Positions 7,265 to 56,000 of a stretch of DNA of 64,000 bases are shown here, piece after piece. Both the position numbers and the translations under genes were made by a program. The stretch's first letter is position 1, and each line of letters opens with the position of its first letter. The stretch comes from Corallium rubrum (lineage: Eukaryota > Cnidaria > Anthozoa > Scleralcyonacea > Coralliidae). The stretch covers positions 84,519,982 to 84,583,981 of the forward strand of contig OZ035997.1 in assembly GCA_964035015.1 (NCBI GenBank), read 5' to 3'. The notes beneath the pieces were generated by a model that was given only the letters and a program-made list of their open reading frames with translations, had not been told where the DNA came from and searched no databases.

Positions 7265-7334
7265 ATTTGCGAACTAAGATAGCAGTGTAAAAGAGATTGG
7301 GCACTACGTGTTTGTTTTGGCTTCTGGTTCGAGG

Positions 7335-9158: not shown

Positions 9159-9195
9159 CTGATGAAGTCACTAGATCGGAGTGTCGAAGCGTTGG
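9159..9195 (+). other. Hammerhead-like motif (copy A)
   Basis: CTGATGA, then A, stem GTCACT/AGTGTC (one T-T mismatch) around a short loop, then GAAGCGTTGGG. Copy B (30403-30440) has GGCACT here and pairs fully with a G-U. The last core position is G, not A. Confidence 0.3.
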
Positions 9196-9229
9196 GTATG
9201 AACAGTAACTTTTTAAGTTACGTTAATTC

Positions 9230-10325: not shown

Positions 10326-10330
10326 GTTTA

Positions 10331-10499
10331 CAGGGGCAGATCCAGGATTTTGGAAAAGGAAGGCCTCTACAAGTCATCGATCATATATGTAGCATCAGCA
10401 GTTGTTCAAAAGCAAAAATTTTTCGGGAAAAGTCTCTTTTTTATTTTACAATTTGGAAACAACAAGGTGCCATGAGCCCCTCTCCTGGATCTGCCACAG
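10331..10499. mobile_element. Small hAT-like MITE (copy A)
   Basis: Ends CAGGGGCAGATCCAGGA and TCCTGGATCTGCCACAG are inverted. Present at the same place in copy B (31630-31830), where the interior differs. The termini resemble the larger CAGGGGCGGATC element at 61311-62563. Confidence 0.45.
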
Positions 10500-10949
10500 G
10501 TTCACACTGGTCAGCACACTGTTGCTCAAGCCTGTTAAGTAAACCCTTTCCCTATTAGGCCACCCAAAACCAGCCACTTTGTTATTTTACTCTGTCTAAC
10601 ACCAGATGATTTTACTCATCAAGTGAGAATACCTAGAGGGAAAGGGTTAATGCCCGTTTGCACAATAATTATGATTCTTGTATACGATTGTCATTCTGGT
10701 ATATGTGATTGTTCGTACACAATGCAACAGTTGCTGGTTGCTCGTTTCTGATTTTGATGAAAGTTGCACACTTGTCAGTAGAGCACATATAAATTATGTC
10801 ACCATGACAATCATATACAAGCACTGTATTGTGTAGATTACAATATAGAACAAAACATACAATAATTTCTAATTTATATATTTTAAAATAATTGTGAATC
10901 CTACCGTTTGGTAAATAAGTTGTGCACAGTCAAGCATGTAGGTCCTCTA

Positions 10950-11961
10950 TTACATCAAGCAAAGATCATTACAAGCTGACATTGCTGCTCTTTCGATGGC
11001 TTTATCTTTGGATGGTTGGGGACTCAGGCTTTCATACTCCTCCACAGTATAAAAACAAAGGCTACCATAAAAGCTAGCTTGGCCTCCATCAATACTATAC
11101 TTCAAAGAGGGCACATTGCTTTGTGTTTGCCAAAACATATAAAGCTTGCCTCTTGAGTTGGTTGGACCTGTCTTTGGAATTGGCTTTTTTTCTTCTTCAA
11201 GAAGCTTTAGAGCTTGTTTAGCCAAAGCTTCCTCTGCATCTTTTTTCCTTGGCTGTGGCTCCTGTCCACTCAAGTTAATATTCCATTCCTTCACCACATG
11301 GACCACAACACTGAATTTCTCTCCATCAGTGCACGTTGCTTCTTCATATTTTGGAAATTCAGTGTGAACACTCAGTTTTTTCTGGTATTCTTTCAACATT
11401 TTTTGGCAGCGATCTGTTGATTTACAATTACGGCCCTTGAGCTCTTCCAATGCATCCTTGGCAGTATTTTGCTCAGCATCTTTTTTCTTTTTTGCCTTTT
11501 TACCTTTGAAGCAACGTTTACCAAGATAAACTTTGCTGAAGTATTCCTTTGTTTCTGGCACTTCTTGGATTATATATGTCAGAACTATTTTGCTTCGTTT
11601 CACATGTTCAGCAAGAAGCCCTTTGAAATTTGATGTAATCGGAGCTGCTTGGGCTTCAGCTTGGTTGCCCTGATGTTCAATTGTATCTTGCAACTGATTC
11701 TTGTCGCTTTTCTTGTTTCCTGTCTGCGCCTTAGGTAGCACAATGGGGTTCTTTGTTGTGGGCAGATTTGAAGGTGAAGGTGAAAAGTCATTCTCTTTGC
11801 AATCATCTGTTGATTCATTGATGAAAGATTTCAAGGCCACCTCAGCAGCACTTTGCTCTGCCTCCTTCTTAGTTAATTTAGCCCCTTCAGATGAGAACGA
11901 TTTTCCCGCAACAGAAACTTTGCTGAAAAACTGGTGAGTTGCAGTTTCTTCATGAGTATAC
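10950..11961 (-). pseudogene. HEPN-dsRBD gene copy A, C-terminal part (dsRBDs), separated by an insertion
   Basis: The minus-strand frame is open from the insertion point to a stop at 10950. It encodes the end of dsRBD1 (YTHEETATHQFFSKVSVAG then TKKEAEQSAAEVALK), a Ser/Pro linker, then a junction joining what is dsRBD2's first strand in copy B directly to the linker before dsRBD6, then dsRBD6, 7 and 8. Relative to copy B about 510 residues (dsRBD2-5) are missing, in frame. No stop codon or frameshift is seen apart from the mobile element. A short start is possible, but no upstream promoter is evident, so expression as a separate dsRBD protein is doubtful. See 32278-35877 for the family description. 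Confidence 0.8.
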
Positions 11962-11969
11962 TTTGGAAG

Positions 11970-13885
11970 GGGCTATCTTTAAAACCAGGAACGGGGAATC
12001 AGGGAACGGAACGGGGAACGGAACCGGGAACGCGAAAACCAGGAACGGAAAAAGCCGGAATCTTTAAAACCAGGAACGGAAAAACCCGGAATCTTTAAAA
12101 CCAGGAACGGAAAAACCCGGAATCTTTAAAACCAGGGACGGAAAAAGCCGGAATCTTTAAAACCAGGAACGGAAAAACCCGGAATCTTTAAAACCAGGAA
12201 CGGAAAAAGCCGGAATCTTTAAAACCAGGAACGGAAAAACCCGGAATCTTTAAAACCAGGAACGGAAAAACCCGGAATCTTTAAAACCAGGAACGGAAAA
12301 ACCCGGAATCTTGCAACAAAACAGACGTTGGATTCTACTGACATACCCTGCTCCACGATGCTTCTTTCAGATGTAATTCCAGTGCTTTTGATTATATAAC
12401 GTATATTTCCTTTATTCGCTGGTTTGACAGCGGACACGCCAGCCGCGCTTATATATCGATTACGCAAATTGAAAATCGTTATTGTTGGAAATCGTCTTAA
12501 GCGAGTGTAACTATAAGTCGAGGGTCGAGAGTCGAGAGTCGAGGGTTGAAGTCGAGAGTCGATAAATTGACCAGAAAATACCAAAAAATCACTAATACTA
12601 TAATCGATTATATATCGCAACATTGTATCTTATTTCTACGCGCCGCGGGATATATTTATAACCTTTGAGCCTTTGATCTAAAAACCGGGGGAAAGCGGCC
12701 ACTTTCACGAACAGCTTACACAGGGGTCTAAGAACCGGGGGAAAGCGGCCACTTTCACGAACAGCTTACATACTTTCACGAACAGCTTACACAGAAATAG
12801 TGATGTATGCGTCGCTTTTTAGCACCGCGGGATGTATTTATAACCTTTGAGAATTTGATCTAAAAACCGGCGAAGTCGTTTTCAGGCTTGACGAGTCTAA
12901 ATAAAAACAATTAAATTCGACTAAAAATTCTTTTAATCTTTATAAATAAGAAAACGAAACGCACTCGGCAAGTCTCTAATTCTAGAATGAAGGTACACAA
13001 GTAACTTTTGTGAAGTTTCTTTTACAACAGCAGGAAACGAATATCTGTCATACGCCGTTAAGCCTTCAATTATCCTTTCAAACAAAACGGCGCCTGGCGT
13101 TACGCAGTATATAAATATATATTTGCTAAAAAGCGACGCATACATCACTATTTCTGTGTAAGCTGTTCGTGAAAGTATGTAAGCTGTTCGTGAAAGTGGC
13201 CGCTTTTCCCCGGTTCTTAGACCCCTGTGTAAGCTGTTCGTGAAAGTGGCCGCTTTCCCCCGGTTTTTAGATCAAAGGCTCAAAGGTTATAAATATATCC
13301 CGCGGCGCGTAGAAATAAGATACAATGTTGCGATATATAATCGATTATAGTATTAGTGATTTTTTGGTATTTTCTGGTCAATTTATCGACTCTCAACTTC
13401 AACCCTCGACTCTCGACTCTCGACTCTCGACTTATAGTTACACTCGCTTAAGACGATTTCCAACAATAACGATTTTCAATTTGCGTAATCGATATATAAG
13501 CGCGGCTGGCGTGTCCGCTGTCAAACCAGCGAATAAAGGAAATATACGTTATATAATCAAAAGCACTGGAATTACATCTGAAAGAAGTATCGTGGAGCAG
13601 GGTATGTCAGTAGAATCCAACGTCTGTTTTGTTGCAAGATTCCGGGTTTTTCCGTTCCTGGTTTTAAAGATTCCGGGTTTTTCCGTTCCTGGTTTTAAAG
13701 ATTCCGGGTTTTCCCGTTCCTGGTTTTAAAGATTCCGGCTTTTTCCGTTCCTGGTTTTAAAGATTCCGGGTTTTTCCGTTCCTGGTTTTAAAGATTCCGG
13801 CTTTTTCCATTCCTGGTTTTCGCGTTCCCCGTTCCGTTCCCCGTTCCGTTCCCTGATTCCCCGTTCCTGGTTTTAAAGATAGCCC
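11970..13885. mobile_element. 1.9-kb palindromic foldback element inserted in HEPN-dsRBD copy A
   Basis: Flanked by a perfect 8-bp target duplication TTTGGAAG (11962-11969 and 13886-13893); copy B supplies the empty site. The termini are GGGCTATCTTTAAAACC in inverted orientation. The arms contain a 31-bp tandem unit (GGAATCTTTAAAACCAGG...) present 8 times on the left and 5 times on the right, then about 500 bp of nearly identical inverted sequence (12310-12823 against 13125-13638), around a unique centre of 301 bp (12824-13124). No transposase is seen; the mirrored 134-codon frames in the arms are repeat translations. The 8-bp TSD suggests a hAT- or P-type transposase acting in trans. Confidence 0.9.
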
Positions 13886-14949
13886 TTTGGAAGGTCAAGC
13901 TTTTTCTTTTGAGCATAGCACTGAAGTGAATTCTTCATCAACGACTTGTCATGCTGGGTACCTGTCGAGGTTGCAGCCTGGTTAGCTGCGACACCACTAT
14001 TTTTTTCAATTTCACTCATTCTTGACTCCATACATTCAATTTTTCCTTTCTGCTCACCATAACTGAATTCAACAGTGTACATCCTTGCTTCTAAATGATC
14101 TGTGACATTTTTTAAATGATCACTAATGTTATTTAATTTCAGGTCGAATCGCGTCTCCAAATCTTTGTTGTGCTTAATCCAGTCTGAGAAATTATCAAGT
14201 GCCTCGCGAGTCTCTGGACTGACTTCATCTCCGGACTCCAGAAGCAGTTCGTGGGTTCTCAAACTGCCTTCGATACAACGAACTTCTACTTCCGGGAGGA
14301 TCTGAAAATCGCCATCCCTCAATGACTTTATTATTTCTACCTTCTCCTTGCAAACTTTCAAATTCTTCAAGAACAGTTCGTCCTCTAGAAGCGCGATAAT
14401 GGAGTCAATGAAGCTTTTCATATCCTTCTCGGGAAAAGTCATTGTCGGACAATGCATGACTTTGTTTCGAATTTTACGAACATTCTCGGGTTGTTTTTTC
14501 TCTTTTAAATAAATACGACCAAACTCCTTGCAGTTCACCAAGACGTTGAGAATGCCAGACAGGTCGGTTTTCTCGGGTCCCGTGTTTAGAGCCGCCGTGG
14601 TTTTGCTCCCTTGCGGATTCATAAAGCACTTGGCGATTTCCCACGGGGTTTCGTGCCATATTGTTGGCTCGGTGTTCTTCCAGTTCAACAGGCCTTGATT
14701 TCTGTATGCCTTGATTTCCTTTACCCATTTCGAACAGCTCGCACAGCTCGGTTCTTTGCCCTTGTTTGTCTTGCATGTACCGTCGCAACGACTCTCAGCT
14801 GTCTTTTTCAGAATATTCCCGTGGACTTTTTCTATCACGTCTTTTGTGAAATCGTGCAAGGCTTCCTTCGACTGGATAAGAGCAAAGGAAACTTTCAACC
14901 AGTTCTTATATTCGTCGTCGTTCAAGCGATTTTCTAGTTCGGACCCCAT
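13886..14949 (-). pseudogene. HEPN-dsRBD gene copy A, N-terminal part (HEPN and coiled coil)
   Basis: Starts with MGSELENRL at 14949 and runs open to the insertion at 13893; beyond it the frame takes a few element codons and stops at 13873, giving a 358-residue product. It contains the whole CXorf38/DZIP3-like HEPN domain with the four-cysteine cluster (CDGTC, CASC), the R-x4-H motif RNKVMH, the coiled-coil segment, and the first helix of dsRBD1. Close to copy B, with scattered substitutions. If still transcribed it would make a HEPN-only protein lacking dsRNA binding. Listed as a pseudogene because the gene is split, but the HEPN part shows no decay. Confidence 0.8.
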
Positions 14950-15057
14950 ACAAATATATTTTCGTCCAGCGCCACTGAATCTTAGAAAACTTCTTACCGT
15001 TATATGAGTCGCTTTTAGACCGCGACTGCGACCGCAACGCTGATTTTTTCGCCAAAC

Positions 15058-15110
15058 GCTTTCGCTTTTACCATGGATTGTAAAAATGCTTTTACTTTCG
15101 CTTTTAGTTT
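15058..15110 (-). promoter_or_regulatory. ISRE/IRF-like element upstream of HEPN copy A
   Basis: The minus strand has AAACTAAAAGCGAAAGT (about 15093-15109), matching the GAAANNGAAA interferon-regulatory-factor site, and a second AAAAGCGAAAGC at 15058-15070. They lie about 110-160 bp upstream of the start at 14949. The same site occurs at the same place in copy B. Confidence 0.45.
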
Positions 15111-15997
15111 AATAGTTTTGACAGTTTTGTGACCAATGTTTTGTTTACCGCCACATCGGCGATTTAACCAAGGTACCCGGCCCCTAGGATCAGTGCCCTC
15201 GCTTTCTCGGGTGACTTAAAAAAGTTTGGGAAAAAGTTTGCAAAGCGGGAGAAAAATATTATTAAATAATAGACGGCCGGCCAAGCATCCAAAATATTAC
15301 TGTTGATGGCATTCTTTGTTACAAGCAGGCAACCACGCTAGATCGCATCGGATAGTGTTTACTTTGAAGGTTTGGGGGGTTGCCATCCGTAATTCGGGAT
15401 TTCAATATAAAAATTTGGAGTTTTTTTGAAAGCACACTACGGCTTTGAAGTTGCAGGCTATTGAAGTTCCGCTTTGACGACAGATGGGTTTTTGGTGGAG
15501 CAATGAAATGAGTCCTAATGTTTTACGACGATTGGCTAATGTTTTCGGTCATCCAATCAGCGCGCGTAAAGTTTCGGATGTCATAATTCGCATCAGCCAC
15601 AATGACAAACAAACAAGAAACGTGGCGTGGATACACCTAAATTTGAACACAACACATCGAAAAAAGGCGACAAGAAGGTAAACTTGTAAAGTTTTATAAT
15701 TGTTTTGGATCTGGTAGCTACGGTAAAGTCCTTTATATTAAGGGCTACAGTTGGTTTTGGTAATTTGCTGATACAACCATAATATATTTCCTTTTTATAA
15801 AGCAAAGCAGTCGTCCCGTGTTGCTCTGAACTTGAACATCAGAGTCAGAGCTAGCGAACCAAACTGAGTTGTTGTTCCTTATGACTTACCACTTAAATAT
15901 AAATATTAACCTTGGACGTGGTAAATGTGTGTACTGTCTTTAAGTTTTATATGTTATTCTGATTTCGTTTAACAATATTAGTTTACCGTATTTGTGT

Positions 15998-20239: not shown

Positions 20240-20380
20240 GGACGTTCTAAAGATTTTGGGTGAAGGAAAATTCGAGTGTAGAATATATACATTTTAAGAC
20301 CAAACCGGGACCAGTTGCGAAAAATACAACTATACACAGGCCTTCCGGCAGGAATTGAACCCACCACCTTGCGATTCTAA
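20240..20380 (-). mobile_element. tRNA-derived SINE cut at its head (copy A end)
   Basis: The same SINE as 5356-5586. The sequence follows the family from the tail to the B box, then stops within the tRNA-like head (…TTGCGATTCTA) and switches to unrelated sequence. In copy B the same SINE (36538-36724) continues. The breakpoint coincides with the right end of the duplicated segment. Confidence 0.7.
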
Positions 20381-25529: not shown

Positions 25530-26676
25530 ATACAAGGGGTACAGGAATGCGCCGCCCTCTAGGGCGTATGGTTTTCGAGCTCCGGGGTTTGGGATAGGGT
25601 ATACAAATTGTCCATTTTGGTCTGGAATAGGGTGCTATATTTTGATCTGAGATAGGGTATGTATGTGACACCAGTGTTGAGATAGGGTATTGATTTTTTT
25701 AGGTTTGGGATAGGGTCTGAAAAATCGCCTTTTCAGGTCTAGGATAGGGTCAGGATTTTGAGGTCACGGCGGCACACCCCTACCCAAAAATTGCCAGAGT
25801 ACCCCCTGGCTCGCAGGATAGTAGCATATATGTACGTGTGAAGAATAAAAACAGCGATATTCGGTAAATTTCTGCGTTTATTTAATTCTACAAATGCATT
25901 AAATGCAAATTAATAAAGAACAAAAATAATATTTAAGAATGAAATTAGTAAGAAATTTTAATTGTTTCATTTAATGGTATGTTTTAAATACTCAAATAGT
26001 ATATAATAATTTTTTCAACCTTGTACATATGAGACCTTCGCCTTCGGCAAAAAGGTCATTCAACGCCCAGAAGTTTTGGATTTACAAGACAATTTATGCA
26101 GTCTTTGTCTAATTTGTTGATAGGAGCCATTTCGAAGTCAAGGTAAAACTCATCTGCATATACACATAAGACTGAAGCAACCATAGTAAACAATGCACTT
26201 TTGCAATTTGAAAGCGAAGCTTTATTGTGTACGAATTAAGTTATACTTTAAAGTGCCTAAAGTTTGTCTTATTTGAAAGAACACTTAAAATCATAGAGGA
26301 ACATCTTTTGCAGTTTTTCGTTTCCTTGCTTTGTTCTTGAAATATTTTAGTTTGTTTGATATGCAAATTAACATTTTGACGTCGTAGGTGCATAATGAGC
26401 TATCGGAGAAGGTTAGATATCTTTTCTATTATCAAATCAAATTAATTTAAATGATCGAAGCATGCATGTGGATGTGTTTCGTCCACAACACCAAACATGT
26501 AGATCTTCAAGTGATTATATTTAATTTGGTAATAGCAAAGATATATAACTTTTTCGATAACTCGTTAAGCACGTGTGACGCCAAATGTTCAATTTGCATA
26601 TAAAAAAAACTGAAGTATCTGAAGAACGAAGCAAGGAAATGAAAAACTGGAAAAGATGTTACTCTATACCATTTTA

Positions 26677-27015
26677 AGTAATAGTTAAAATATGAGTGGC
26701 CGATCTTTATGAGCATTTACAATGAATGGCGAGCCGAAGGCGAGCCATTGTAGATGCCCATAAAGATTGGACGCGAATATTTTAACTTACTTATCAGATT
26801 GTAAGTGTAAATTATGAACACTTTGTTTAAGAGTCGTAGAAAAGGCTAAATAAGGTCATTTTAACTGAGAAAAAGCTGAATTGAGCCACTAGTGCCTATT
26901 AACTTTGATAAAAATTGATGTTTTATTAATCAATGTTTTATCCGTATTTAAAGATGCTGATTAAACATTCATTTCCTTTGAATTTTCGTCATGAATCATT
27001 AATGAATTTGATAAG
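26677..27015. mobile_element. Insertion unique to copy B
   Basis: Interrupts the CATTTTAAGTGTTCTTTC seen uninterrupted in copy A (4252-4270). Its left 100 bases form an inverted repeat (GTTAAAATAT...ATATTTTAAC) around GGCGAGCCGAAGGCGAGCC. Confidence 0.6.
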
Positions 27016-28219
27016 TGTGTTCTTTCAAATAGGACAAACTTAATTTTCGTTTCATAGGTACTTTAAAGTGCATATATACGAAACGAAAAGTAAGTTTGTC
27101 TTGTTTCAAAGAAAACTTAAAATGACAAACGAAATTTGTAAACAACGAAATTTGTGCAAGAGGTCTGTATAGCTTGGTTCACACTAGTGCCATAAGCATT
27201 TATGCTTATTCGCTAGTGTGAACCAGGCTTATAGTGGTATAAGCTTGTACCTCTGCATATTTGACAAACAAAAGCATTCTGGGAAAATTGCAATATCGTC
27301 CTTTGTGTGTATCTGACTCAATTTTTCACTTTACCCTGGTTGTGACTTCACATGCATGGAGGACATTGACGAACTGGTGCTAGTAATAGCAATAATTTCT
27401 CCGGCCCATGATTGGTACTGCACAGTCATCTCAGTCTTTAACTATTAAATCTACAGACGAGTCCCTGACAAATATGTACACTAACTGATAAACGAGTTTC
27501 CTGTCATTCGTTCATAGCATAGGTAATAGAACGTATACATGGTTTGGAAAGTCATCCAAAGTCATTGTTCTATGTTTTTGTTTATAAAGTGTTTGGAAAT
27601 TTGTGCAACTTAACGGTATTGTATTTTCCGTATAACAAAGCAGTTATCCAATAGCAACGATCGGGTTTAATTAGTAGTCCTTCATCGTCACGTGTTCATA
27701 GAATTTACTTCCATATAAGGAACTCTACTGTCTTTCAACATGACCATTACTTCAAGTTGAAAGACAATATAGCTTCCAAAGTCCAAACCATATGTTCTAT
27801 TAACTATGTTCAGGGTCGGCATCTACCTATATCAAGGTTTTTGATTGGTTTAGTTCACCTGTCTAACCCAAACAAAAACTCTAATCAGTAACGAGAGTGG
27901 AAACAAATTGGCAATTGGCAATGCGATTTGTTATTTATGGCCAATCAAAAAACTTGTTCATATTACGCAAGTCTTTACTGGTCGTTGACCATTATTTTCA
28001 TCGACGAGATATTTTTAGCGCGATTGTCGACTAGTTCAAGTAAAAAAATTATTAGCTACTTAGTTACATAAAATATTCTAACTGAAAAGCAAACTAGTAC
28101 ATGTCGGCTAGCTCGTCAATGGAAATAATGAGCATTGAATAATACGAAACGTGTCTATCAGTCAGTGTATTCTGACTATAATAAGTGTCACTCAGTGAAT
28201 CGTTCTTCCTCGTCTGTAT

Positions 28220-28500
28220 TTTCATGTAATATTTCATAAACGAATGATGGGAGTGTTTTACCAGGGGTTACAAATACGAGAGGACAATGAAAATCACGAG
28301 GCCATTAACCGAGTAATTTTCATTGTTCTCGAGTGTTTGTAAAACATTTTCATTGTTTTCGAATGTTTTACAAATATGAGAGAACACTGCAAATTGCGGG
28401 GTAATATAGGCTGAGTGATTTCTGTTGTTCTCGAGTTTTTGCAACCTCTGGTAAAAAACACGACACACGAGTTTATGAAATAACTTCTCAATCCGAGTTA
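28220..28500. repeat. Interspersed repeat with alternating inverted segments (copy 2)
   Basis: Counterpart of 6590-6835 in copy B. Confidence 0.6.
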
Positions 28501-28956
28501 ATTATAGTAGAGGGACTTGATGATGTTGATCATATTGTATTATACAATGGTTTCATGCACGTTGAATTTATAACTAAGAAATGTGGTAATAAACGGTTCC
28601 TTGTGCCGTGTATTATCTGATTTCTTAATTGTAAATTCAGTTAGCGCGACCGGGTTTCGAAACTCATGCACATGACCAAATATTTTCCTCTGATTGGCTA
28701 ATTAGCTCAATGAATTATTGAGTTTGAGAAGTCAATTATAGACTGAGGCGACTACGCTGTTAAAACATCAATACGTTTTACCATAGTTGATAGAGGGAGA
28801 TGGTTAGGAAACATCATAAAATCCATTGTTCTAAGGTCTTGTGCACGGTCACGGTTGAAAATTCTATTGTTTTACTATTGTTTTACCTTTGCGAACTAAG
28901 ATAGCAGTGTAAAAGAGATTGGGCACTACGTGTTTGTTTTGGCTTCTGGTTCGAGG

Positions 28957-29244
28957 AACACCGCTACCAAACGTTTTGCGCATGCGCGACGTCCGAGATC
29001 GTCCCAGGCTCGTCCTCAGAAAAAGGGCGGGAAAACACTGAAATATTTGGACTTGTCCAAGAGTCCGACACAAAAGTTAAAATTATAAGCATGCTACCAA
29101 AAAGATAAGGTAGGTAATTTGTACATGGCTTCCTTGTCAATATTGTAAATACTGTCTGGTTGTTGTCGCCACGGCTAGTTACCACTTCTCTTGCAATGTT
29201 TACTCAGCGAATTCACGCATGCGCAAACGTTTGGCAGCGGTGTT
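28957..29244. mobile_element. MITE, AACACCGCTGCCAAACG family (copy 2)
   Basis: The same insertion as 7335-7702, with the same GGTTCGAGG duplication (28948-28956 and 29245-29253). An internal deletion makes it 288 bp. Confidence 0.8.
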
Positions 29245-29467
29245 GGTTCGAGGTATTCCAGTACCTATTCCAATATGAAATGAGCTTTAAAAAACTTTGT
29301 GCACGGTCAAACCCCGTTCAACCTCCAAGTGGGTTCTTTGTTCAATATATTTGAAGTTTGCCGGGTTTCCTAACCATCTCCCTCTATCAACTATGGTTTT
29401 ACAAACTGTCAAAAGATTTGAGACTAAGAAATATTGATCAACGAATCAGGAGCCGGATAGATTTCTG

Positions 29468-29674
29468 CTATATTTTATATATACCGCCTAATAATTTAGG
29501 ATAGAAATTTAAAAGTCGTTTTCGTCTCATTGGCTTGCTTTTCAAAACTTCGGCTTCTTTATTGCTAACACCCTTTAACAGCGCACCTAAAAACGCCTCA
29601 GTCACAACACCAACAGCATGTAGAGCTGGCGAGGACGTATATGCATGATTCGCGCCCTCAGAAAGGTTATACAA
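29468..29674 (-). other. Short open frame, possible gene remnant (copy B)
   Basis: 68 codons reading VVTEAFLGALLKGVSNKE and ending at 29468. It looks protein-like, and the copy A counterpart is broken. No family recognised. Confidence 0.2.
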
Positions 29675-30402
29675 CTACATTTCAATTTCACATAATAAAT
29701 CATCTATCTATAAATTGTACGATCTATACCTTATAGTGCAATTAAAGTAACTTTATTCAAATGACAAATGACTAGTTCTTAAAATAAATCAATATAAAGT
29801 GCAGTATAATATACCAACCAATTAAAATCATGAAATGGATACTATTATCATAATTATTATTATTACTGTATTATTCCGATCTAGTGATTTCACCAAAACG
29901 TAAAGATACTGAAGTATTGCGAAGGAACAGAGAAAAGAAACTGTTTAGTACTCCTTTCCGTTTCCGTTTTCGATCTGATCGAAACGAATGGCTGAAGTCA
30001 ATCCACGCAGTGGAGTGGATTGACTTGAGATTCAACAAGCAAGGTTCGACTTGAATGTCTCCAATCTGATTCATGTATTAAAACACGGTTCGACTTAAAA
30101 ATGACTTGATACGTATGAATGAAGTTGGTACGTGTCGTGCTAAATGGCCGCAGAGATTGAGGGAAGCACAAAAAATAGTGTTCCAAAACCATATAACAAT
30201 GTTCCATGCAGATCGGATTCTACATGTAAACATGTGCCCGGATTGACGGTTTTCGATCCCATTCGCTTCATGTAAACAGGGCCTAATTAGGAGTATATCG
30301 GCCAAATCAAACGTTTGGATATTGTTGGCAGACAACGTTAAGAGTTAATGCCCAACATCATTTATAATAAAACGTTAAGAGTGGTTGTCTTGTAAAGATC
30401 AC

Positions 30403-30440
30403 CTGATGAAGGCACTAGATCGGAGTGTCGAAGCGTTGGG
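30403..30440 (+). other. Hammerhead-like motif (copy B)
   Basis: CTGATGA, then A, stem GGCACT/AGTGTC fully paired with one G-U, then GAAGCG. See copy A at 9159. Confidence 0.3.
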
Positions 30441-30473
30441 TATGAACAGTAACTTTTTAAGTTACGTTCATTC

Positions 30474-30539
30474 TAGCCTGATTATCAGACGGTATGGTGT
30501 TCACTCACTCGAACACCATACCGTCTGATAATCAGGCTA
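30474..30539. mobile_element. 66-bp perfect hairpin element with 9-bp TSD
   Basis: A 29-bp stem starting TAGCCTGATTATCAGACGG, an 8-base loop ACTCACTC, and the exact complement. Flanked by CGTTCATTC (30465-30473 and 30540-30548). Copy A has the uninterrupted site near 9223, so this is a clean insertion into copy B. Confidence 0.9.
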
Positions 30540-30682
30540 CGTTCATTCACAAACACGTAGCGATGTTGATATATGTACTGTGAGAAAATTTAATATTAAT
30601 AATAAAAACATATTAAAAATGACTGTCCCAATTTATTCCACAACTTGTACAGTCTGTATTATACTGTTTGCAAACTTAATAA

Positions 30683-30874
30683 CTAACTAAAAAAAATAAA
30701 TTTAGTGTCCTCCGTGACAGCGCGAGAATCAGTAAATTCTATAGCCCGTATACAGTATATACCCTCTCGTACAGCCTCATCTAAAAAACTGTCTAGCAAT
30801 TCCTGCAACCTTGGATGGAATGCTATGTCTGTTGGTATTCTGTACAGATCTGTATCACTGCATAGGAAATACAC
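30683..30874 (-). other. Short open frame, unrecognised (copy B)
   Basis: 63 codons containing RIPTDIAFHPRLQELLDSFL. The copy A counterpart (about 9400-9570) has a 1-base insertion. Protein-like composition, family unknown. Confidence 0.2.
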
Positions 30875-30889
30875 TAGTATAATATCAGA

Positions 30890-32277
30890 TACATGTAAAT
30901 ATACTAAGCTATAAAGCTATTAATTAAAGCTAATGTGCCAAATTGAATTTTTTTTAACAACTTTCCACATGTAAACATTTGCAGTAGTAATTACATGTCT
31001 TTGAGAGTTTGAGGGCAATTTTGGATATACAAGTAGTTAGTTTTCAAATACATGAAATTGTCCAATTGTGAACGAAGTGAGTTGAAGTCTACCGAGGGCT
31101 ATTTACCCCAAATTGCACGAAAAAACATGTACAGTACATGTAATAACTAATTAATGACATGTTACTTACATGCAATTTTTGTTTCCTACTTTCAGCCAAT
31201 TTGAAGTAAAAAGCAGAAAGACTGGAGACGGAGTTTCCCGCCAAAAGTGTTCTTGGACGAAGGCAATTTCAAATAATTGTACTCTGTTTGTGTAGTGAAA
31301 CCACAGGCAATTTCATGTAACATGTAATTACACAAGTTAATTCTTTAAATGTTTCCATAGTGACAAATTGTAAATATTGTTCATAATCATTGTTTGAACA
31401 ATATTGTCAGCAGTGACAAAGCAATATTTTTCATGTTGTTGGAACAGGGAAAAGTCATATTCATTTGATGAAACAACTATGTTCACTATTTTTGATAATC
31501 ATGTCTGTTCCATTACGTTTCACAAGTTATTACAGCATTGGAAAAATTGAACAATGTTGTAACAACTTAATATCATGCTGTAGCTTTTAAAACAACATTG
31601 TACATTGCTGGTCAGTGCTATTGTTTACAGGGGCAGATCCAGGATTATGGAAAATGAAGGGCCCTACAAGTCATCGATCATACTGTAATATGTAGCATTA
31701 CTAGCATCAGCAGTTGTTCAAAAGCAAAAATAGGCTCTGCTAGAGGGCCAGAGTTTCAGGAAAAGTCTCTTTTATTTTACAATTTGCAAGCAACAAGGCA
31801 CCATGAGCCCCTCTCCTGGATCTGCCACAGGTTCACACTGGTCAGCACACTGCTGCTCAAGCCTGTTAAGTAAACCCTTTCCCTACTGGGCCACACAAAA
31901 CCAGCCACTTTGTTATTTTACTCTGTCTAATGCCAGACAATTTTACTCATCAAGTGAGAATGCCTAGAGGGAAAGGGTTAATGCCCATTTGCACAATATG
32001 ATTCTTGTATACGATTGTCATTCTGGTATATGTGATTGTTCGTACACAATGCAACAGTTGCTGGTTGCTCGTTTCTGATTTTGATGAAAGTTGCACACTT
32101 GTCAGTAGACCACATATAAATTATGTCACCATGACAATCGTATACAAGCACTGTATTGTGTAGATTACAATATAGAACAAAACATACAATAATTTCTAAT
32201 TTATATATTTTAAAATAATTGTGAATCCTACCGTTTGGTAAATAAGTTGTTGCACAGTCAAGCATGTAGGTCCTCCA
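30890..32277. other. 3' flank of the intact HEPN-dsRBD gene
   Basis: Non-coding, matches 9600-10949 in copy A. Contains a small CAGGGGCAGATCC-type MITE at about 31629-31830. Confidence 0.4.
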
Positions 32278-35200
32278 TTAAATCAAGCAAAGATCATTAC
32301 AAGCTGACATTGCTGCTCTTTCGATGGCTTTATCTTTGGATGGTTGGGGACTCAGGCTTTCATACTCCTCCACAGTATAAAAACAAAGGCTACCATAAAA
32401 GCTAGCTTGGCCACCATCAATACTATACTTCAAAGAGGGTGCATTGCTTTGCCTTTGACAAAACGAATTAAGCTTACTTTTAGAGTTGGTTGGACCTGTC
32501 TTTGGAATTGGCTTTTTTTCTTCTTCAAGAAGCTTTAGAGCTTGTTTAGCCAAAGCTTCCTCTGCATCTTTTTTCTTTGGTTGCGGCTCCTGCTCGCTCA
32601 AGTTAATATTCCATTCCTTCACCACATGGACCACAACACTGAATTTCTCTCCATCAGTGTGAGTTGCTTCTTCATATTTTGGAAATTCAACCTTAACATT
32701 CAGTTTTTTCTGGTATTCTTTCAACATTTTTTGGCAGTGATCTGTTGATTTACAATTACGGCCCTTGAGCTCTTCCAATGCATTCTTGGCAGCATTTTGC
32801 TCAGCATCTTTTTTCTTTTTTGCCTTTTCACCTTTGAAACAACGCTTACCAAGATAAACTTTGCTGAAGAATTCCTTTGTGTCTGGTGCTTGTTGGGTTG
32901 TATATGTTGGAACTATTTTGCTTTGTTTTACATGTTCAGCAAGAAGAACTCTGAAATTTGATTTAATTGGAACTGGTTGGGCTTCAGCTTGGATGCCCTG
33001 ATTTTCAATTCCAACATCTTGATCAATGGTATTGTCAGTTGCATTCAGCCCAATCACTTTGTTTTGAATTTCTACTCCCTCTCTCTGTACAGATGTTTCG
33101 TTCTGATGATTCACGTGTAATACAGCGCCTTCTCCTGATGCCAGAGCACATTTGCTTGAAGATAGGGCTGAGGCAAGTGAAACACCATCACATGAACTCT
33201 GTCCCAGTACAAGAAATGTATAAGCTTGTTTTGCAGCGTTGTCTCTGGCTTCTTTTTTACTCTTTTGTGGGCTGCTGCTTTTGTAGGTCTTGCCCATTAC
33301 CACCACTTTAGACCAGTACCCAAAATCATCACTTTCATCTTTGTATTCAGGAGGAACATCAGAACCACTTGACTGAACATACTCATTTAATTTGCTTCGG
33401 TATGGTCGTTTATCCTCATCTGAAAAGTGAAGTTCAATGGGTGGTGAAGTATTGGAGCTTGAACTTCTGGCTTGGGTGTCATCTCTATCTACATTTCCAG
33501 TTGTGCTTGTAGTAGTGATGATGGAGGAAGGTAATTCTCTCACTGTATCAGCTGAGGAACCAGTGGACAATGAATCGTCATTGGATAAAGGCAACATGGT
33601 TGTACCATTGCTCACACTTGATGTCAATTTTTCAGGAGTTGATCGAGTTATATCATTCCATGCTTCCTTTGCTGCCATCTCTTTAGCTGCCTTTTTAGTA
33701 GGTTGAGGTGCTTGACTTTTATATGTTTTGCCCATTAACTTTACTTGGCTCAGAAATCCTGATTCACACTTTATTTCTTCATAATCAAGGTGCTCATCTA
33801 TACCAAGCTGCTGAACATGTTCGTGCAGTTTGCTTTTGAATGGCTTTTTTCCATCAGGGCTGTCACCCAACTCAGATGTACTGACTTCAGAAAGCTTGGT
33901 ACATGATTGGCTATCTGCATCAGTTAGAACACTGGTTACAGAGGATTTACAACAGACATCTTTTGTTGCTGTTATTGATGATGATGATGAATCAGCAGAA
34001 TTGTGATTTAAGGTTGAAAAACAATCACTTTGACATGTTTGATATTTTAACAAGTTTAACTGAGAGCAAGCTTCCATTGCAGCACTCTCTTTTGCTTCTT
34101 TTATACTATTCATAGCTTGTGGGCTTTTGTAGGTCATCCCAGATACCTTAACACTGTAGAGGAATTTCTTTTCACACTGCTCTGGCACATAATCAGGTGG
34201 TGTACCGGACATTTTCTGTACATGTTCATTTAGTATGCTCTTATATGTTTTCTCAGTACTCTTCGGTGAAGTTTCTTTAACCATAATTGAAGTAGAAGTT
34301 TCAGTGCAGCTTGAACTTGAAGGACTTTCATTACCTGGTTGGGGCAGAGATGTGCTATTTTTCTCCAGGTATGCCAACACAAATTCAGCAGCTTTTTGTT
34401 CGGCATCAATTTTTCTTCCTTGAGGAAGAGTGTCAGGTGAGTACCAAACCCCATCAAAAAACACTTTCGACAAAAAGAGGCCACCTTCTGTCCTTTTTGA
34501 TTCATAAAGTGGATTCAAGATCTTCTGTTCCTGGGCACATTCCTGCAGCTGATTCTTGTAGCTTTTCTTGTTTCCTGTCTGCACCTTAGGCAGCACAATG
34601 GGGTTCTTCGTTGTGGGCAGATTTGAAGGTGAAGGTGAAAAGTCATTCTCTTTGCAATCATCTGTTGATTCATTGATGAAATATTTCAACGCCACCTCAG
34701 CAGCACTTTGCTCTGCCTCCTTCTTAGTTGATTTAGCCCCTTCAGATGAGAATGATTTCCCTGCAACAGAGACCTTGCTGAAAAACTGACCAGTTGCAGT
34801 TGCTTCATGAGTATACTTTGGAAGGTCAAGCTTTTTCTTTTGAGCATAGCACTGAAGTGAATTCTTCAACAATGACTTGTCATGCTGGATACCTGTCGAG
34901 GTTGCAGCCTGGTTAGCTACACCACCACTATTTTTTTCAAGCTCACTTATTCTTGACGCCATATACTCAATTGTCCCTTTCAGCTCACCACAACTGAATT
35001 CAACAGTAGACATCCTTGCATCGAAATGATCTGTGACATTTTTTAAATGATCACTAATGTTATTTAATTTCAGGTCGAATCGCGTCTCCAAATCTTTGTT
35101 GTGCTTAATCCAGTTTGAGAAATTATCAAGTGCCACGCGAGTCTCTGGGCTGACTTCATCTCCGGACTCCAGAAGCAGTTCGTGGGTTCTCAAACTGCCT

Positions 35201-35877
35201 TCGATACAATCAACTTCTACTTCCGGGAGGATCTGAAACTCGCCATCCCTCAATGACTTTATTATTTCTACCTTCTCCTTGCAAACTTTCAACTTCTTCA
35301 AGGACAGTTCGTCCTCTAGAAGCGCGATAATGGAGTCAATGAAGCTTTTCATATCCTTCTCGGGAAAAGTCATTGTCGGACAATGCATGACTTTGTTTCG
35401 AATTTCACGAACATTCTCGGGTTGTTTTTTCTCTTTTAAATAACTACGACCAAACTCTTTGCAGTTCACCAAGACGTTGAGAATGCCAGACAGGTCGGTT
35501 TTCTCGGGTCCCGTGTTTAGAGTCGCCGTGGTTTTGCTCCCTTGCGGATTCATAAAGCACTTGGCGATTTCCCACGGGGTTTCGTGCCATATTGTTGGCT
35601 CCGTGTTCTTCCAGTTCAACAGGCCTTTGTTGTATGCCTTGATTTCCTTTACCCATTTCGAACAGCTCGCACAGCTCGGTTCTTTGCCCTTGTTTGTCTT
35701 GCACGTACCGTCGCAACGACTCCTACCTGTCTTTGTCAGAATATTCCCATGGACTTTTTCTATCACGTCTTTCGTGAAATCGTGCAAGGCTTCCTTCGAC
35801 TGGAGAAGAGCAAAGGAAACTTTCAACCAGTTCTTGTATTCGTTGTCGTTCAAGCGATTTTCTAGTTCGGACCCCAT
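32278..35877 (-). CDS. HEPN-domain protein with coiled coil and eight tandem dsRNA-binding domains
   Basis: A single-exon frame of 1199 codons from MGSELENRL (35877). An in-frame Met 41 codons upstream (36000) exists, but copy A has a frameshift there and an ISRE-like site abuts it, so the shorter start is preferred. Residues about 1-210 form a CXorf38/DZIP3-like HEPN domain with a cysteine cluster (C55, C59, C69, C72) and R160-N-K-V-M-H165, the R-x4-H motif of HEPN ribonucleases. About 249-315 is a coiled coil. Eight dsRBD-like repeats follow near 337-402, 440-505, 544-607, 679-743, 825-891, 974-1038, 1047-1118 and 1133-1196. Most keep the KKxAxxxAA helix that contacts dsRNA (for example TKKEAEQSAAEVAL); the last is degenerate. 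Linkers are Ser/Thr-rich. No helicase, kinase or deaminase domain. A role in dsRNA recognition and RNA cleavage is inference from the domains. It is probably cytoplasmic: no signal peptide or membrane segment. Its paralogue is the split copy A. Confidence 0.9.
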   Translation of the reverse strand: MGSELENRLNDNEYKNWLKVSFALLQSKEALHDFTKDVIEKVHGNILTKTGRSRCDGTCKTNKGKEPSCASCSKWVKEIKAYNKGLLNWKNTEPTIWHETPWEIAKCFMNPQGSKTTATLNTGPEKTDLSGILNVLVNCKEFGRSYLKEKKQPENVREIRNKVMHCPTMTFPEKDMKSFIDSIIALLEDELSLKKLKVCKEKVEIIKSLRDGEFQILPEVEVDCIEGSLRTHELLLESGDEVSPETRVALDNFSNWIKHNKDLETRFDLKLNNISDHLKNVTDHFDARMSTVEFSCGELKGTIEYMASRISELEKNSGGVANQAATSTGIQHDKSLLKNSLQCYAQKKKLDLPKYTHEATATGQFFSKVSVAGKSFSSEGAKSTKKEAEQSAAEVALKYFINESTDDCKENDFSPSPSNLPTTKNPIVLPKVQTGNKKSYKNQLQECAQEQKILNPLYESKRTEGGLFLSKVFFDGVWYSPDTLPQGRKIDAEQKAAEFVLAYLEKNSTSLPQPGNESPSSSSCTETSTSIMVKETSPKSTEKTYKSILNEHVQKMSGTPPDYVPEQCEKKFLYSVKVSGMTYKSPQAMNSIKEAKESAAMEACSQLNLLKYQTCQSDCFSTLNHNSADSSSSSITATKDVCCKSSVTSVLTDADSQSCTKLSEVSTSELGDSPDGKKPFKSKLHEHVQQLGIDEHLDYEEIKCESGFLSQVKLMGKTYKSQAPQPTKKAAKEMAAKEAWNDITRSTPEKLTSSVSNGTTMLPLSNDDSLSTGSSADTVRELPSSIITTTSTTGNVDRDDTQARSSSSNTSPPIELHFSDEDKRPYRSKLNEYVQSSGSDVPPEYKDESDDFGYWSKVVVMGKTYKSSSPQKSKKEARDNAAKQAYTFLVLGQSSCDGVSLASALSSSKCALASGEGAVLHVNHQNETSVQREGVEIQNKVIGLNATDNTIDQDVGIENQGIQAEAQPVPIKSNFRVLLAEHVKQSKIVPTYTTQQAPDTKEFFSKVYLGKRCFKGEKAKKKKDAEQNAAKNALEELKGRNCKSTDHCQKMLKEYQKKLNVKVEFPKYEEATHTDGEKFSVVVHVVKEWNINLSEQEPQPKKKDAEEALAKQALKLLEEEKKPIPKTGPTNSKSKLNSFCQRQSNAPSLKYSIDGGQASFYGSLCFYTVEEYESLSPQPSKDKAIERAAMSACNDLCLI

Positions 35878-36004
35878 ACAAATATATTTTCGTCCAGCGC
35901 CACTGAATGTTAGAAAACGTCTTACCGTTATATGAGTCGCTTTTAGACCGCGACTGCGACCGCAACGCTGTGATTTTTTCGCCAAACGCTTTGAATTCAA
36001 TTTT

Positions 36005-36022
36005 ACTTTCGCTTTCAGTTTT
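36005..36022 (-). promoter_or_regulatory. ISRE/IRF-like element upstream of HEPN-dsRBD copy B
   Basis: Minus strand AAAACTGAAAGCGAAAGT is a three-part GAAANN repeat matching the interferon-stimulated response element core (GAAANNGAAA). It is about 130-145 bp upstream of the start at 35877, and conserved in copy A. A CCAAT-like ACCAATCAG is at 36033-36041. Cnidarians have IRF genes; binding here is untested. Confidence 0.5.
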
Positions 36023-36232
36023 GACAGTTTTGTACCAATCAGTTTTGTTTACCCGCCATATCGGCGATTTAACCAAGGTACCCGGCCCCTAGGATCAGTG
36101 CGCCGAATTTTTCGGTGACTTTAGCTTTAGCTGTGTAAGAAAATCAAGGAAAAAGTTTGCAAAGCGGGAGAAAAATATTATTAAATAACATCTGCTAATA
36201 GCAGTCCAGTCCTCTTCCTCCTTTTCCTCTTT

Positions 36233-36291: not shown

Positions 36292-36537
36292 CACCACACA
36301 ATTGAAGGTGATCATGAAGATCGGAAAGGCGCTGCAGTCTGCGCAGAAAACTCCACTGAGCCGAAACACTGGGAGTTGGGGTTTGGCAATTTGCATATAT
36401 TCCGACAACTTGACTATTTGCGGGAGGTGGTGGGGCGCCTGACTCTTTTCCCCACCACCACAATTTCCTGTACTTATATATTATATAATATATTATAATA
36501 CTCTTCCTTCAAAATACGTGATCCCATGCCAACCCAT

Positions 36538-36724
36538 TTTGGGTGAAGGAAAATTAGAGTGTAGAATACATACATTTTAAGACCAAACCGGGACCAGTTG
36601 CGAAAAATGCAACTACACATACAGGCCTTCCGGGAGGAATTGAACCCACGACCTTGCGATTCTAGTGCAATGCTCTGACGCCACGGAGGGCGTTGCCGAA
36701 AGCTCGATCGCGAGTTCTGTATAC
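36538..36724 (-). mobile_element. tRNA-derived SINE (copy 4)
   Basis: Same family as 5356. The B box (GGTTCAATTCC) is present; the A-box region has lost about 8 bases (TGACGCCACGG). Confidence 0.75.
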
Positions 36725-36792
36725 TATAATAAGGTCCAATATTACTAATAATATTAATATACCCAATTCTCTCCTGGCATTACCACCTTACT

Positions 36793-37040
36793 ATATATAC
36801 AGAAGTCCAGAACTCGCGATCGAGCTTTCGGCAACGCCTAGCTCCGTGGCTGAGTGGTCAGAGCATTGTACTAGAATCGCAAGGTCGTGCATGGGTTCAA
36901 TTCTTGCCGGAAGGCCTGTGTAGTTGCATTTTTCGCAACTGGTCCCGGTTTGGTCTTAAAATGTATATATTCTACACTCGAATTTTCCTTCACGCAAAAT
37001 CCTTAGAACATGCTATGTAATCGAGTGAAATGCCCAATAT
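36793..37040 (+). mobile_element. tRNA-derived SINE (copy 5), inverted partner of copy 4
   Basis: A full-length copy: head with TGGCTGAGTGGTCAGAGC and GGTTCAATTC, a short insertion (GTGCATGG), then the conserved tail to TGCCCAATAT. It faces copy 4 across about 70 bases. Confidence 0.8.
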
Positions 37041-37496
37041 TACTTATTCCCTGATGTGATGTTTTGGATAAACATTTAATAGATTAGATTAGATTATAGA
37101 TTAGATAAACTTTATGTTGCGAGAATAACACATTACAGTGAATAACTGATAAACTTGTGGTCCTCATTACTGAATTGAGCGCAAAATTTAACAATATGTG
37201 ACGCAAGTTGGTGCGCTATGATGTGACCAAAAATGTGTCATGTGTTATCGAAAATCAGTGTCATGGAATTCTGTACTGGGAACGAGAAGTTCGATGCCAC
37301 GTTGCGGGATTCCGCTTCGAGTGCGCATGACTTTGAGCGGAAGACGAAACCTCGGTGTTGTTTGGAAACTGGAAAGTAGAAAGCTTTTGGAGTCCAATGT
37401 ATCGTCGTAAGTGTTGGAGAACTTGTAAAAAGACCTACGATTTGGTCGTCTACGGCTTATTGAGATGATGGAATAGCTTCGGAAACGTTGAACGAA

Positions 37497-53079: not shown

Positions 53080-56000
53080 AGTTTTAAAAGTGTACAGTTT
53101 TAACAAGTGTGCAGTTTTAAAAAGTGCACCATTTTAAAAAGTGCACATTTTTAAAAAGTGCACAGTTTTAAAAAGTGCACATTTTTAAAAAGTGCACAGT
53201 TTTAAAAAATGCACAGTTTTAAAAAGTGCATAGTTTTAAAAAGTGCACAGTTTTAAAAAGTGCACGGTTTTAAAAAGTGCACAGTTTTAAAAAGTGCACC
53301 GCTTTAAAAAGCGCACCATTTTAAAAATTGCGCAGTTTTAAAAAGTGCACAGTTTTAAAAAGTGCACCATTTTAAAAAGTGCACAGTTTTAAAAAGTGCA
53401 CAGTTTTAAAAAGTGCACAGTTTTAAAAAGCGCACCATTTTAAAAAGTGCACAGTTTTAAGAAGTACACAGTTTTAAAAAGTGCACAGTTTTAAGAAGTG
53501 CACGGTTTTAAAAAGTGCACAGTTTTAAAAAGTGTACAGTTTTAAAAAGTGTACAGTTTTAAAAAGTGCACAGTTTTAAAAAGTGTACAGTTTTAAAAAG
53601 TGCACCGCTTTAAAAAGCGCACCATTTTAAAAATTGCGCAGTTTTAAAAAGTGCACAGTTTTAAAAAGTGCACCATTTTAAAAAGTGCACAGTTTTAAAA
53701 AGTGCACAGTTTTAAAAAGTGCACAGTTTTAAAAAGCGCACCATTTTAAAAAGTGCACAGTTTTAAGAAGTACACAGTTTTAAAAAGTGCACAGTTTTAA
53801 GAAGTGCACGGTTTTAAAAAGTGCACAGTTTTAAAAAGTGTACAGTTTTAAAAAGTGTACAGTTTTAAAAAGTGCACAGTTTTAAAAAGTGTACAGTTTT
53901 AAAAAGTGCACAGTTTTAAAAAGTGTACAGTTTTAAAAAGTGTACAGTTTTAAAAAGTGTACAGTTCTAAAAAGTGCACAGTTTTAAAAAGTGTACAGTT
54001 CTAAAAAGTCCATAGTTTTAAAAAGTGTACAGTTCTAAAAAGTGCACAGTTTTAAAAAGTGCACAGTTTTAAAAAGTGTACAGTTTCAAAAAGTGTACAG
54101 TTTTAAAAAGTGCACAGTTTTAAAAAGTGTACAGTTCTAAAAAGTGCACAGTTTTAAAAAGTGTACAGTTCTAAAAAGTGCACAGTTTTAAAAAGTGTAC
54201 AGTTCTAAAAAGTCCATAGTTTTAAAAAGTGTACAGTTCTAAAAAGTGCACAGTTTTAAAAAGTGCACAGTTTTAAAAAGTGTACAGTTTCAAAAAGTGT
54301 ACAGTTTTAAAAAGTGCACAGTTTTAAAAAGTGTACAGTTCTAAAAAGTGCACAGTTTTAAAAAGTGTACAGTTCTAAAAAGTGCACAGTTTTAAAAAGT
54401 GTACAGTTTTAAAAAGTGCAAAGTTTTAAAAAGTGCACAGTTTTAAAAAGTGAACAGTTTTAAGAAGTGTACAGTTTTAAAAAGTGAACAGTTTTAAAAA
54501 GTGCACAGTTTTAAAAAGTGCACAGTTTAAAAAATGCACCATTTTAAAAAGCACACCATTTTAAATAGTGCACAGTTTTGGGAAGTGCGCAGTTTTAAAA
54601 AGCACACCATTTTAAAAAGTGCACAGTTTTAAGAAGTGCACGGTTTTAAAAAGTGCACAGTTTTAAAAAGTGTACAGTTTTAAAAAGTGTACAGTTTTAA
54701 AAAGTGCACAGTTTTAAAAAGTGTACAGTTTTAAAAAGTGCACAGTTTTAAAAAGTGTACAGTTTTAAAAAGTGCACAGTTTTAAAAAGTGTACAGTTCT
54801 AAAAAGTGCACAGTTTTAAAAAGTGTACAGTTCTAAAAAGTCCATAGTTTTAAAAAGTGTACAGTTCTAAAAAGTGCACAGTTTTAAAAAGTGCACAGTT
54901 TTAAAAAGTGTACAGTTTCAAAAAGTGTACAGTTTTAAAAAGTGCACAGTTTTAAAAAGTGTACAGTTCTAAAAAGTGCACAGTTTTAAAAAGTGTACAG
55001 TTCTAAAAAGTGCACAGTTTTAAAAAGTGTACAGTTCTAAAAAGTCCATAGTTTTAAAAAGTGTACAGTTCTAAAAAGTGCACAGTTTTAAAAAGTGCAC
55101 AGTTTTAAAAAGTGTACAGTTTCAAAAAGTGTACAGTTTTAAAAAGTGCACAGTTTTAAAAAGTGTACAGTTCTAAAAAGTGCACAGTTTTAAAAAGTGT
55201 ACAGTTCTAAAAAGTGCACAGTTTTAAAAAGTGTACAGTTCTAAAAAGTGCACAGTTTTAAAAAGTGTACAGTTTTAAAAAGTGTACAGTTCTAAAAAGT
55301 GCACAGTTTTAAAAAGTGTACAGTTCTAAAAAGTGCACAGTTTTAAAAAGTGTACAGTTTTAAAAAGTGCACAGTTTTAAAAAGTGTACAGTTTTAAAAA
55401 GTGCACAGTTTTAAAAAGTGTACAGTTCTAAAAAGTGCACAGTTTTAAAAAGTGTACAGTTCTAAAAAGTACACAGTCTTAAAAAAAAGTGTACAGTTTT
55501 AAAAAGTGTACAGTTTTAAAAAGTGCACAGTTTTAAAAAGTGTACAGTTCTAAAAAGTGCACAGTTTTAAAAAGTGTACAGTTCTAAAAAGTGCACAGTT
55601 TTAAAAAGTGTACAGTTTTAAAAAGTGTACAGTTTTAAAACGTGTACATTTTTAAAAAGTGTACAGTTTTAGAAAGTGTACAGTTTTAAAAAGTGTACAT
55701 TTTTAAAAAGTGTATAGTTTTAGAAAGTGCACAGTTTTAAAAAGTGCACAGTTTTAAAAATTGCACAGTTTTAAAATGTGCACAGTTTTAAAAAGTACAC
55801 ACTTTTAAAAAGCGCACCATTTTAAAAAAGTGCACAGTTTTAAGAAGTGCACAGTTTTAAAAAGTACACAGTTTTAAAAAGTGCACAGTTTTAAAAAGTA
55901 CAAAGTTTTAAAAAGTGCACAGTTTTAAAAAGTGAACAGTTTTAAGAAGTGTACAGTTTAAAAAGTGAACAGTTTTAAAAAGTGCACAGTTTTAAAAAGT

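Follow-up and report, generated by a model that had tools for sequence, protein, structure and literature searches.

A CXorf38-type HEPN protein with eight tandem double-stranded RNA-binding domains in Corallium rubrum: a candidate RNA-directed effector

Introduction

A 64,000-nucleotide stretch of the genome of Corallium rubrum (NCBI GenBank assembly GCA_964035015.1, contig OZ035997.1, positions 84,519,982 to 84,583,981 of the forward strand; hereafter the window) carries a predicted gene, copy A, whose protein combines a DUF4559 (CXorf38-type HEPN) domain, a heptad-repeat stretch, and eight double-stranded RNA-binding domains (dsRBDs), an architecture that is confirmed by profile searches with the predicted sequence. 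Copy A is real, uninterrupted, and conserved, yet proteins of its kind have already been published: fusions of HEPN domains to dsRBDs have been known since 2013, and the long array is an unusual version of them. What is added here is the length of the array, the absence of the GPxH loop from its domains, and a broken neighboring copy of the gene, copy B. We place at roughly 0.5 the probability that the protein is a dimeric HEPN endoribonuclease held on long double-stranded RNA (dsRNA) by avidity, an octocoral-type member of the CXorf38 HEPN branch with its own nucleic-acid-targeting array.

In the HEPN family CXorf38, which was predicted to be active and placed as Swt1-like, the domain contains an inserted Zn ribbon (Anantharaman et al. 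2013, PMC3710099). According to the same paper, HEPN domains of this family occur in fusions with DSRBD, NACHT, ankyrin, CARD, and DEATH domains, the family is tied to expression in immune cells, and the forms with dsRBDs were taken to suggest that dsRNA, for instance the replication intermediates of viruses, is acted upon; its text passages give no number of dsRBDs for the CXorf38 fusions, which its figures or supplements may do. DUF4559 is also present in 45 of the 99 NLRP members of Corbicula fluminea (PMC8298618). A preliminary description of copy A had proposed a dsRNA-directed HEPN effector and had named a published account of the same architecture as grounds for abandoning that proposal. 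The idea remains plausible but is not new, having been put forward for the CXorf38 family in 2013, and the architecture has been published in kind (PMC3710099); for an array of six to eight dsRBDs with a CXorf38-type HEPN domain, including the eight-domain form, no description was found in the open-licence literature. The preliminary description was silent on copy B and on the loss of GPxH.

Domain Architecture of the Copy A Protein

Copy A is a minus-strand open reading frame (ORF) that runs from a methionine codon at 35877 to the end of its stop codon at 32278 and encodes 1199 residues (Table 1), just as the preliminary description had read it. Compared with Pfam, the whole protein matched DUF4559 (PF15112, the CXorf38 family) over residues 8-291 with an E-value of 4.2e-40 (138.5 bits, curated cut-off 27) and dsrm (PF00035, the dsRBD) in eight stretches with an E-value of 1.8e-57, which agrees with the CXorf38-like HEPN domain and the eight dsRBDs proposed for it. 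A DZIP3-type HEPN domain, the other label proposed, was rejected, HEPN_DZIP3 being absent from the ten Pfam families listed up to E 10, a listing from which the HMMER filters remove most matches above about 0.1. Because the architecture recurs in eight relatives with protein records of their own, misassembly or chance fusion was considered unlikely. A defence label from PADLOC was rejected as well: its profiles gave no match for the whole protein, and the HEPN part alone matched one of them at E 0.021.

Table 1. Coordinates in the window of copy A, its domains, and the parts of copy B (HMM, hidden Markov model; ORF, open reading frame)
Feature	Position	Strand	Evidence
Copy A, predicted gene, uninterrupted frame, 1199 residues + stop	32278..35877	-	ORF; Pfam DUF4559 and eight dsrm
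CXorf38/DUF4559-type HEPN domain, residues 1-215	35233..35877	-	DUF4559 match 8-291, invariant columns, HEPN_Swt1 in 18 of 29 members
Four-cysteine cluster C55, C59, C69, C72, candidate zinc ribbon, residues 55-72	35662..35715	-	Invariant in 29 of 29
R-x4-H motif RNKVMH, residues 160-165	35383..35400	-	R160 and H165 invariant in 29 of 29
Heptad-repeat stretch, predicted coiled coil, residues ~245-320	34918..35145	-	Heptad test against shuffles
dsRBD 1, residues 338-399	34681..34866	-	Pfam, family-specific HMM
dsRBD 2, residues 440-504	34366..34560	-	Pfam, family-specific HMM
dsRBD 3, residues 544-607	34057..34248	-	Pfam, family-specific HMM
dsRBD 4, residues 680-742	33652..33840	-	Pfam, family-specific HMM
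dsRBD 5, residues 826-889; beside dsRBD 4 without resolution in the domain tree	33211..33402	-	Pfam, family-specific HMM
dsRBD 6, residues 974-1037	32767..32958	-	Pfam, family-specific HMM
dsRBD 7, residues 1048-1117; weakest, 20.0 bits alone	32527..32736	-	Pfam, family-specific HMM
dsRBD 8, residues 1131-1196	32290..32487	-	Pfam, family-specific HMM
Copy B, first part: HEPN, heptad stretch, start of dsRBD 1; R-x4-H and cysteines kept	13885..14949	-	tblastn, alignment
Inverted-repeat insertion of 1914 bp in dsRBD 1 of copy B, 10-bp target-site duplication	11971..13884	-	Window self-comparison
Copy B, second part: remainder of dsRBD 1, then dsRBDs 6-8	10953..11970	-	tblastn, alignment

The HEPN Domain and the Heptad Stretch

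The HEPN domain, whose end at residue 215 is a boundary of our choosing, holds the sole R-x4-H of the copy A protein (overlapping matches counted), and RNKVMH conforms to the R-x4-6-H pattern of the HEPN superfamily. A single R-x4-H in 1199 residues is unremarkable by chance; what carries weight is the invariance of R160 and H165 in all 29 sequences of the alignment used here (A1), the window's two copies included, although a set made up entirely of close relatives says little about the wider CXorf38 family. The same 29 sequences also keep all four cysteines without exception, as the Zn ribbon of the CXorf38/DUF4559 family would have it, and their binding of zinc is predicted. Every member of A1 matched DUF4559 at E <= 0.01, and 18 of the 29 matched HEPN_Swt1 at that threshold (best 7.1e-7), matches consistent with the view of CXorf38 as a Swt1-like family (PMC3710099).

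Downstream of the HEPN domain, a strong heptad pattern of core hydrophobic residues was found in 35-residue segments starting at residues 245-295 and, at the 0.01 level, in no other segment of residues 1-329 (200 shuffles per segment, on the window's sequence alone). The motif, the cysteine cluster, and a coiled coil had each been named in the preliminary description; the first two were recovered, and the third is predicted from the heptad pattern. A search of solved structures with the whole protein gave 11 matches, every one on the dsRBDs, while with A1 the best 60 of 130 matches (up to E 10) fell on dsRBDs and, weakly (E >= 0.014), on coiled-coil chains.

The dsRBD Array and Its Relatives

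Scored singly, seven of the eight dsRBDs exceed the Pfam cut-off of 23 bits, dsRBD 7 falling below it. A family-specific HMM recovered all eight at E <= 2e-18; it was trained on the same domains and is not independent of them. The last domains of the array, dsRBDs 6-8, are tightly spaced, with linkers of 10 and 13 residues.

Searching with the whole protein returned five relatives (P0001-P0005) of 1043-1109 residues and 40-52% identity; the first 346 residues returned 22 more (P0006-P0027), and an alignment of six full-length proteins returned three further HEPN proteins (P0028-P0030) together with two plant proteins that matched in dsRBDs only. In the whole-protein and alignment searches, scoring covered the 7999 candidates with the most words in common, and the numbers of relatives are lower bounds. 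The family-specific HMM found seven dsRBDs in each of P0001-P0005 and six in each of P0028-P0030, counting a 27-residue fragment in P0030, whereas Pfam alone found fewer, five or six, in P0001-P0005. An organism name is attached to five of the HEPN relatives, and each of the five comes from an octocoral: two from Paramuricea clavata, one from Dendronephthya gigantea, and two from Xenia sp. In the tree built on the HEPN part, midpoint-rooted for drawing only, the two copies of the window pair with each other (100/99) and join P0001-P0003 (100/100), separate from the rows named as octocorals. A limited search for viral or prokaryotic relatives, with one scan of each of two further collections, based on A1 and using two short peptide patterns, gave 66 pattern matches in viral_contigs and 14 in genome_contigs, none of which was confirmed.

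A tree of the individual domains (65 domain sequences, 67 columns) has many unresolved forks and long-branch warnings for dsRBDs 4 and 5 of the window, and in it dsRBDs 2, 6, 7, and 8 group by position across the relatives, each in a starred clade of its own. The dsRBD 3 group (four rows) is supported at 97/77, and dsRBDs 1, 4, and 5 are without resolution. As judged from these sequence comparisons, the order of the dsRBDs is largely conserved among relatives, and the position-specific clades suggest that the array was largely in place before the lineages split. The alignment shows no counterpart of the window's dsRBD 5 in P0001, P0004, and P0005; the third domains of P0002, P0003, and P0028 fall outside the dsRBD 3 group, so that these proteins may lack dsRBD 3.

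Some further observations concern the relatives themselves. The two proteins P0029 and P0030 of Xenia sp. bear the consecutive locus numbers LOC124447027 and LOC124447028, share the value 17445722 for the longest contig, and are perhaps a tandem pair. Just past the last dsRBD, at or near the end of the protein, 15 of the 22 shorter relatives (P0006-P0027) read ‘DRY’, and P0015 and P0021 end in ‘DR’; over the first 490 positions P0004 and P0008 agree in 486, but P0004 reads on. The ‘DRY’ ends and the match between P0004 and P0008 would fit an intron at this point, absent from the window gene and from P0002 (25-kb contig).

A Broken Second Copy Within a Duplicated Block

Both copies sit in a duplicated block of roughly 10-12 kb (~3284-15269 against 25730-36188) that is broken by insertions and deletions. 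Within the window, tblastn gave a second match to residues 1-354 of copy A at 14949-13885 (91.5% identity). Residues 352-451 matched at 11969-11670 (89%) and residues 843-1199 matched at 11966-10953 (66%); this last alignment spans a deletion and is continuous from residue ~956 onward. Just inside the insertion, after ‘LPKGYL’, the reading frame of copy B's first part stops, leaving an open HEPN domain and heptad stretch without a complete dsRBD. The insertion has long, nearly identical inverted ends that consist partly of 31-bp tandem units, and we take it to recall Mutator-like foldback elements. Also missing from copy B is a stretch that measures 1530 nt in copy A (33011-34540; residues 446 to ~955), a length divisible by three, and comprises most of dsRBD 2 and all of dsRBDs 3-5; because the relatives have dsRBDs in this region, the gap is more simply read as a loss in copy B.

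Between the copies, the ratio of nonsynonymous to synonymous change (dN/dS) is 0.45 for residues 1-215, 0.74 for residues 216-330, 0.54 for residues 1-354, and 0.52 for the C-terminal part; the value for dsRBD 1 was not used because its tail crosses the deletion. Simulated neutral change was not rejected for residues 216-330 (P 0.46) or residues 1-354 (P 0.09), and the C-terminal part gave P 0.035, uncorrected over four overlapping tests. Counting only alignments with the offset of the duplication, the copies differ at 2.95% of sites in residues 1-215, 6.00% in residues 216-354, 7.40% in the C-terminal part, and 1.7-9.4% in non-coding blocks.

Proposed Mechanism and Alternative Readings

In the proposed mechanism, the coiled coil would pair two chains so that their HEPN domains together make a metal-independent endoribonuclease site, while the dsRBD array, its domains individually weak, would tether the protein through avidity to RNA that is long or multiply structured; RNA at or near the anchoring site would then be cut, and the likely role would be protection from RNA viruses or from the RNA of transposable elements. 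For the copy A protein we infer that it dimerizes, binds zinc and RNA, cleaves RNA, and serves in defence. Cooperation of this type has a precedent in Staufen2, in which several weaker dsRBDs jointly give stable RNA binding (PMC6477676).

Binding of RNA by dsRBDs commonly involves a glutamate in helix 1, GPxH in the β1-β2 loop, and KKxAK at helix 2 (PMC11309768), and the last two of these regions were compared in a set of 61 dsRBDs (60 full length and one fragment) from the window protein and its eight relatives. In region 3 (the start of helix 2, KKxAK), the first two positions are both lysine or arginine in 33 of the 61, and at least one of them is in 56 of the 61. Five of the window's eight domains, dsRBDs 1, 4, 5, 6, and 7, keep both leading basic residues, and dsRBDs 1 and 6 are the most basic, with net charges of +5 and +6. 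Several points weigh against the proposal. The GPxH that characterizes the β1-β2 loop of type A dsRBDs was found in none of the 60 full-length domains, by strict or loose pattern; dsRBDs 2, 3, and 8 are without the full basic pair of region 3, and dsRBDs 2, 4, and 8 have a net charge of 0 or below. The window protein scores only 15.5-19.0 bits against HEPN_Swt1, under the cut-off of 27.5, none of the best 60 of 130 solved chains covers the HEPN part, and neutrality was not rejected for the HEPN region between copies A and B (residues 1-215, P 0.09). A 2025 study presents human CXorf38 as a tumor suppressor, and ‘HEPN’ is absent from its main text (PMC12196990). Binding of dsRNA is less certain than the preliminary description had assumed, with GPxH uniformly lost and the basic pair retained in five of the window's eight domains. 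Loss of GPxH does not exclude binding, because mutation of the GPxH histidine in dsRBD1 of Arabidopsis DRB1 caused only a slight drop in affinity (PMC4701949); with the loop gone and several domains still having region-3 basic residues, each dsRBD is probably weak.

The same loop is at the heart of a competing explanation, which we consider unlikely, namely that the array is chiefly a protein scaffold in which several domains, above all dsRBDs 7 and 8, bind proteins or each other, the HEPN domain acting on RNA brought by partners. Besides the missing GPxH, this would account for the close spacing of dsRBDs 6-8 and for the matches of 6 of the 29 members of A1 to a Dicer dimerization profile, and it has a parallel in dsRBD2 of DRB1, which is without GPxH and chiefly mediates protein contacts (PMC4701949). 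It is less easily reconciled with the basic character of dsRBDs 1 and 6, with the prevalence of lysine and arginine at the leading region-3 positions, and with the small effect of the histidine mutation in DRB1 dsRBD1. Quite unlikely, in our judgment, is a cellular rather than defensive function, in which the protein would be a Staufen-like binder of structured mRNAs with a HEPN domain for their maturation or turnover. Staufen proteins do act on mRNA of the cell through three or four dsRBDs plus one dsRBD-like domain (PMC6477676), and position-specific conservation of the domains suggests distinct roles for them; against this, the CXorf38 family is linked to fusions with NACHT and DEATH domains and to immune-cell expression (PMC3710099), and the two copies in the window and the two consecutive Xenia locus numbers would look more like defence. 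A decoy or sensor that only binds, with a HEPN domain that takes up RNA or dimerizes without cutting, is very unlikely: HEPN domains that probably act without catalysis are noted in PMC3710099, but the non-catalytic cases named there are without the motif, whereas here R160 and H165 are invariant.

An extended form of the dimeric-endoribonuclease proposal, which we regard as unlikely as a whole, would make the protein a helicase-free and kinase-free animal dsRNA effector that gauges RNA length, its many weak, GPxH-less dsRBDs having to engage together, with anchoring and activation of the HEPN nuclease confined to long viral duplexes. It is compatible with the data because, in the relatives examined, the dsRBDs stand in a largely conserved order, the canonical loop is missing, and the nuclease motif is invariant.

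Comparison With Known Systems

RNase L senses 2-5A via ankyrin repeats and, to our knowledge, has no dsRBD; nor do we know of a HEPN domain in Staufen. The likeness of the copy A protein to Staufen lies in the presence of several dsRBDs in one animal protein, the difference in that Staufen has three or four dsRBDs and one dsRBD-like domain (PMC6477676), and it resembles RNase L/KEN-type proteins, nucleases of the HEPN superfamily with a role in antiviral responses (PMC3710099), in being a candidate HEPN nuclease. Cyanobacterial HEPN-RNase III-dsRBD proteins likewise join HEPN to a dsRBD (PMC3710099) but contain an RNase III domain, whereas the window protein reaches 93.8 bits with the NCBIfam RNaseIII model, under its cut-off of 166.25, the best stretch being dsRBD 1 (333-398) against the C-terminal part of the model. 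The closest likeness is to the CXorf38 family itself, with which it shares the DUF4559 match, R-x4-H, four cysteines inside the HEPN domain, and fusion to dsRBDs (PMC3710099); what sets it apart is an array of eight dsRBDs, six or seven in its relatives, in a cnidarian-type protein.

Other Features of the Window

Elsewhere in the window, a satellite with a 17-bp unit (~338 copies) and a strong skew of G over C occupies 53080-58831, and a large foldback of 2.3 kb at 10-2275 matches its own reverse complement at 98%; ORFs of 274 and 377 residues in or reaching beyond this foldback have no Pfam match at E 0.01. A tRNA-Ser (AGA) gene at 5479-5551 lies inside a repeat with further copies near 20244-20379, 36536-36729, and 36808-37047, and this repeat is possibly a tRNA-derived family of short interspersed nuclear elements.

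Implications

CXorf38 occurs in humans, and passages on it in PMC3710099 and PMC12196990 show no molecular activity for it. A relative with a long array is a favorable place to test the cutting of RNA and the targeting of dsRNA by the CXorf38 HEPN branch, as suggested in 2013. The uniform absence of GPxH would make the array a natural case for dsRNA binding by avidity and, if the proposal is true, some corals would have a dsRNA-directed ribonuclease that needs neither a helicase nor a second messenger.

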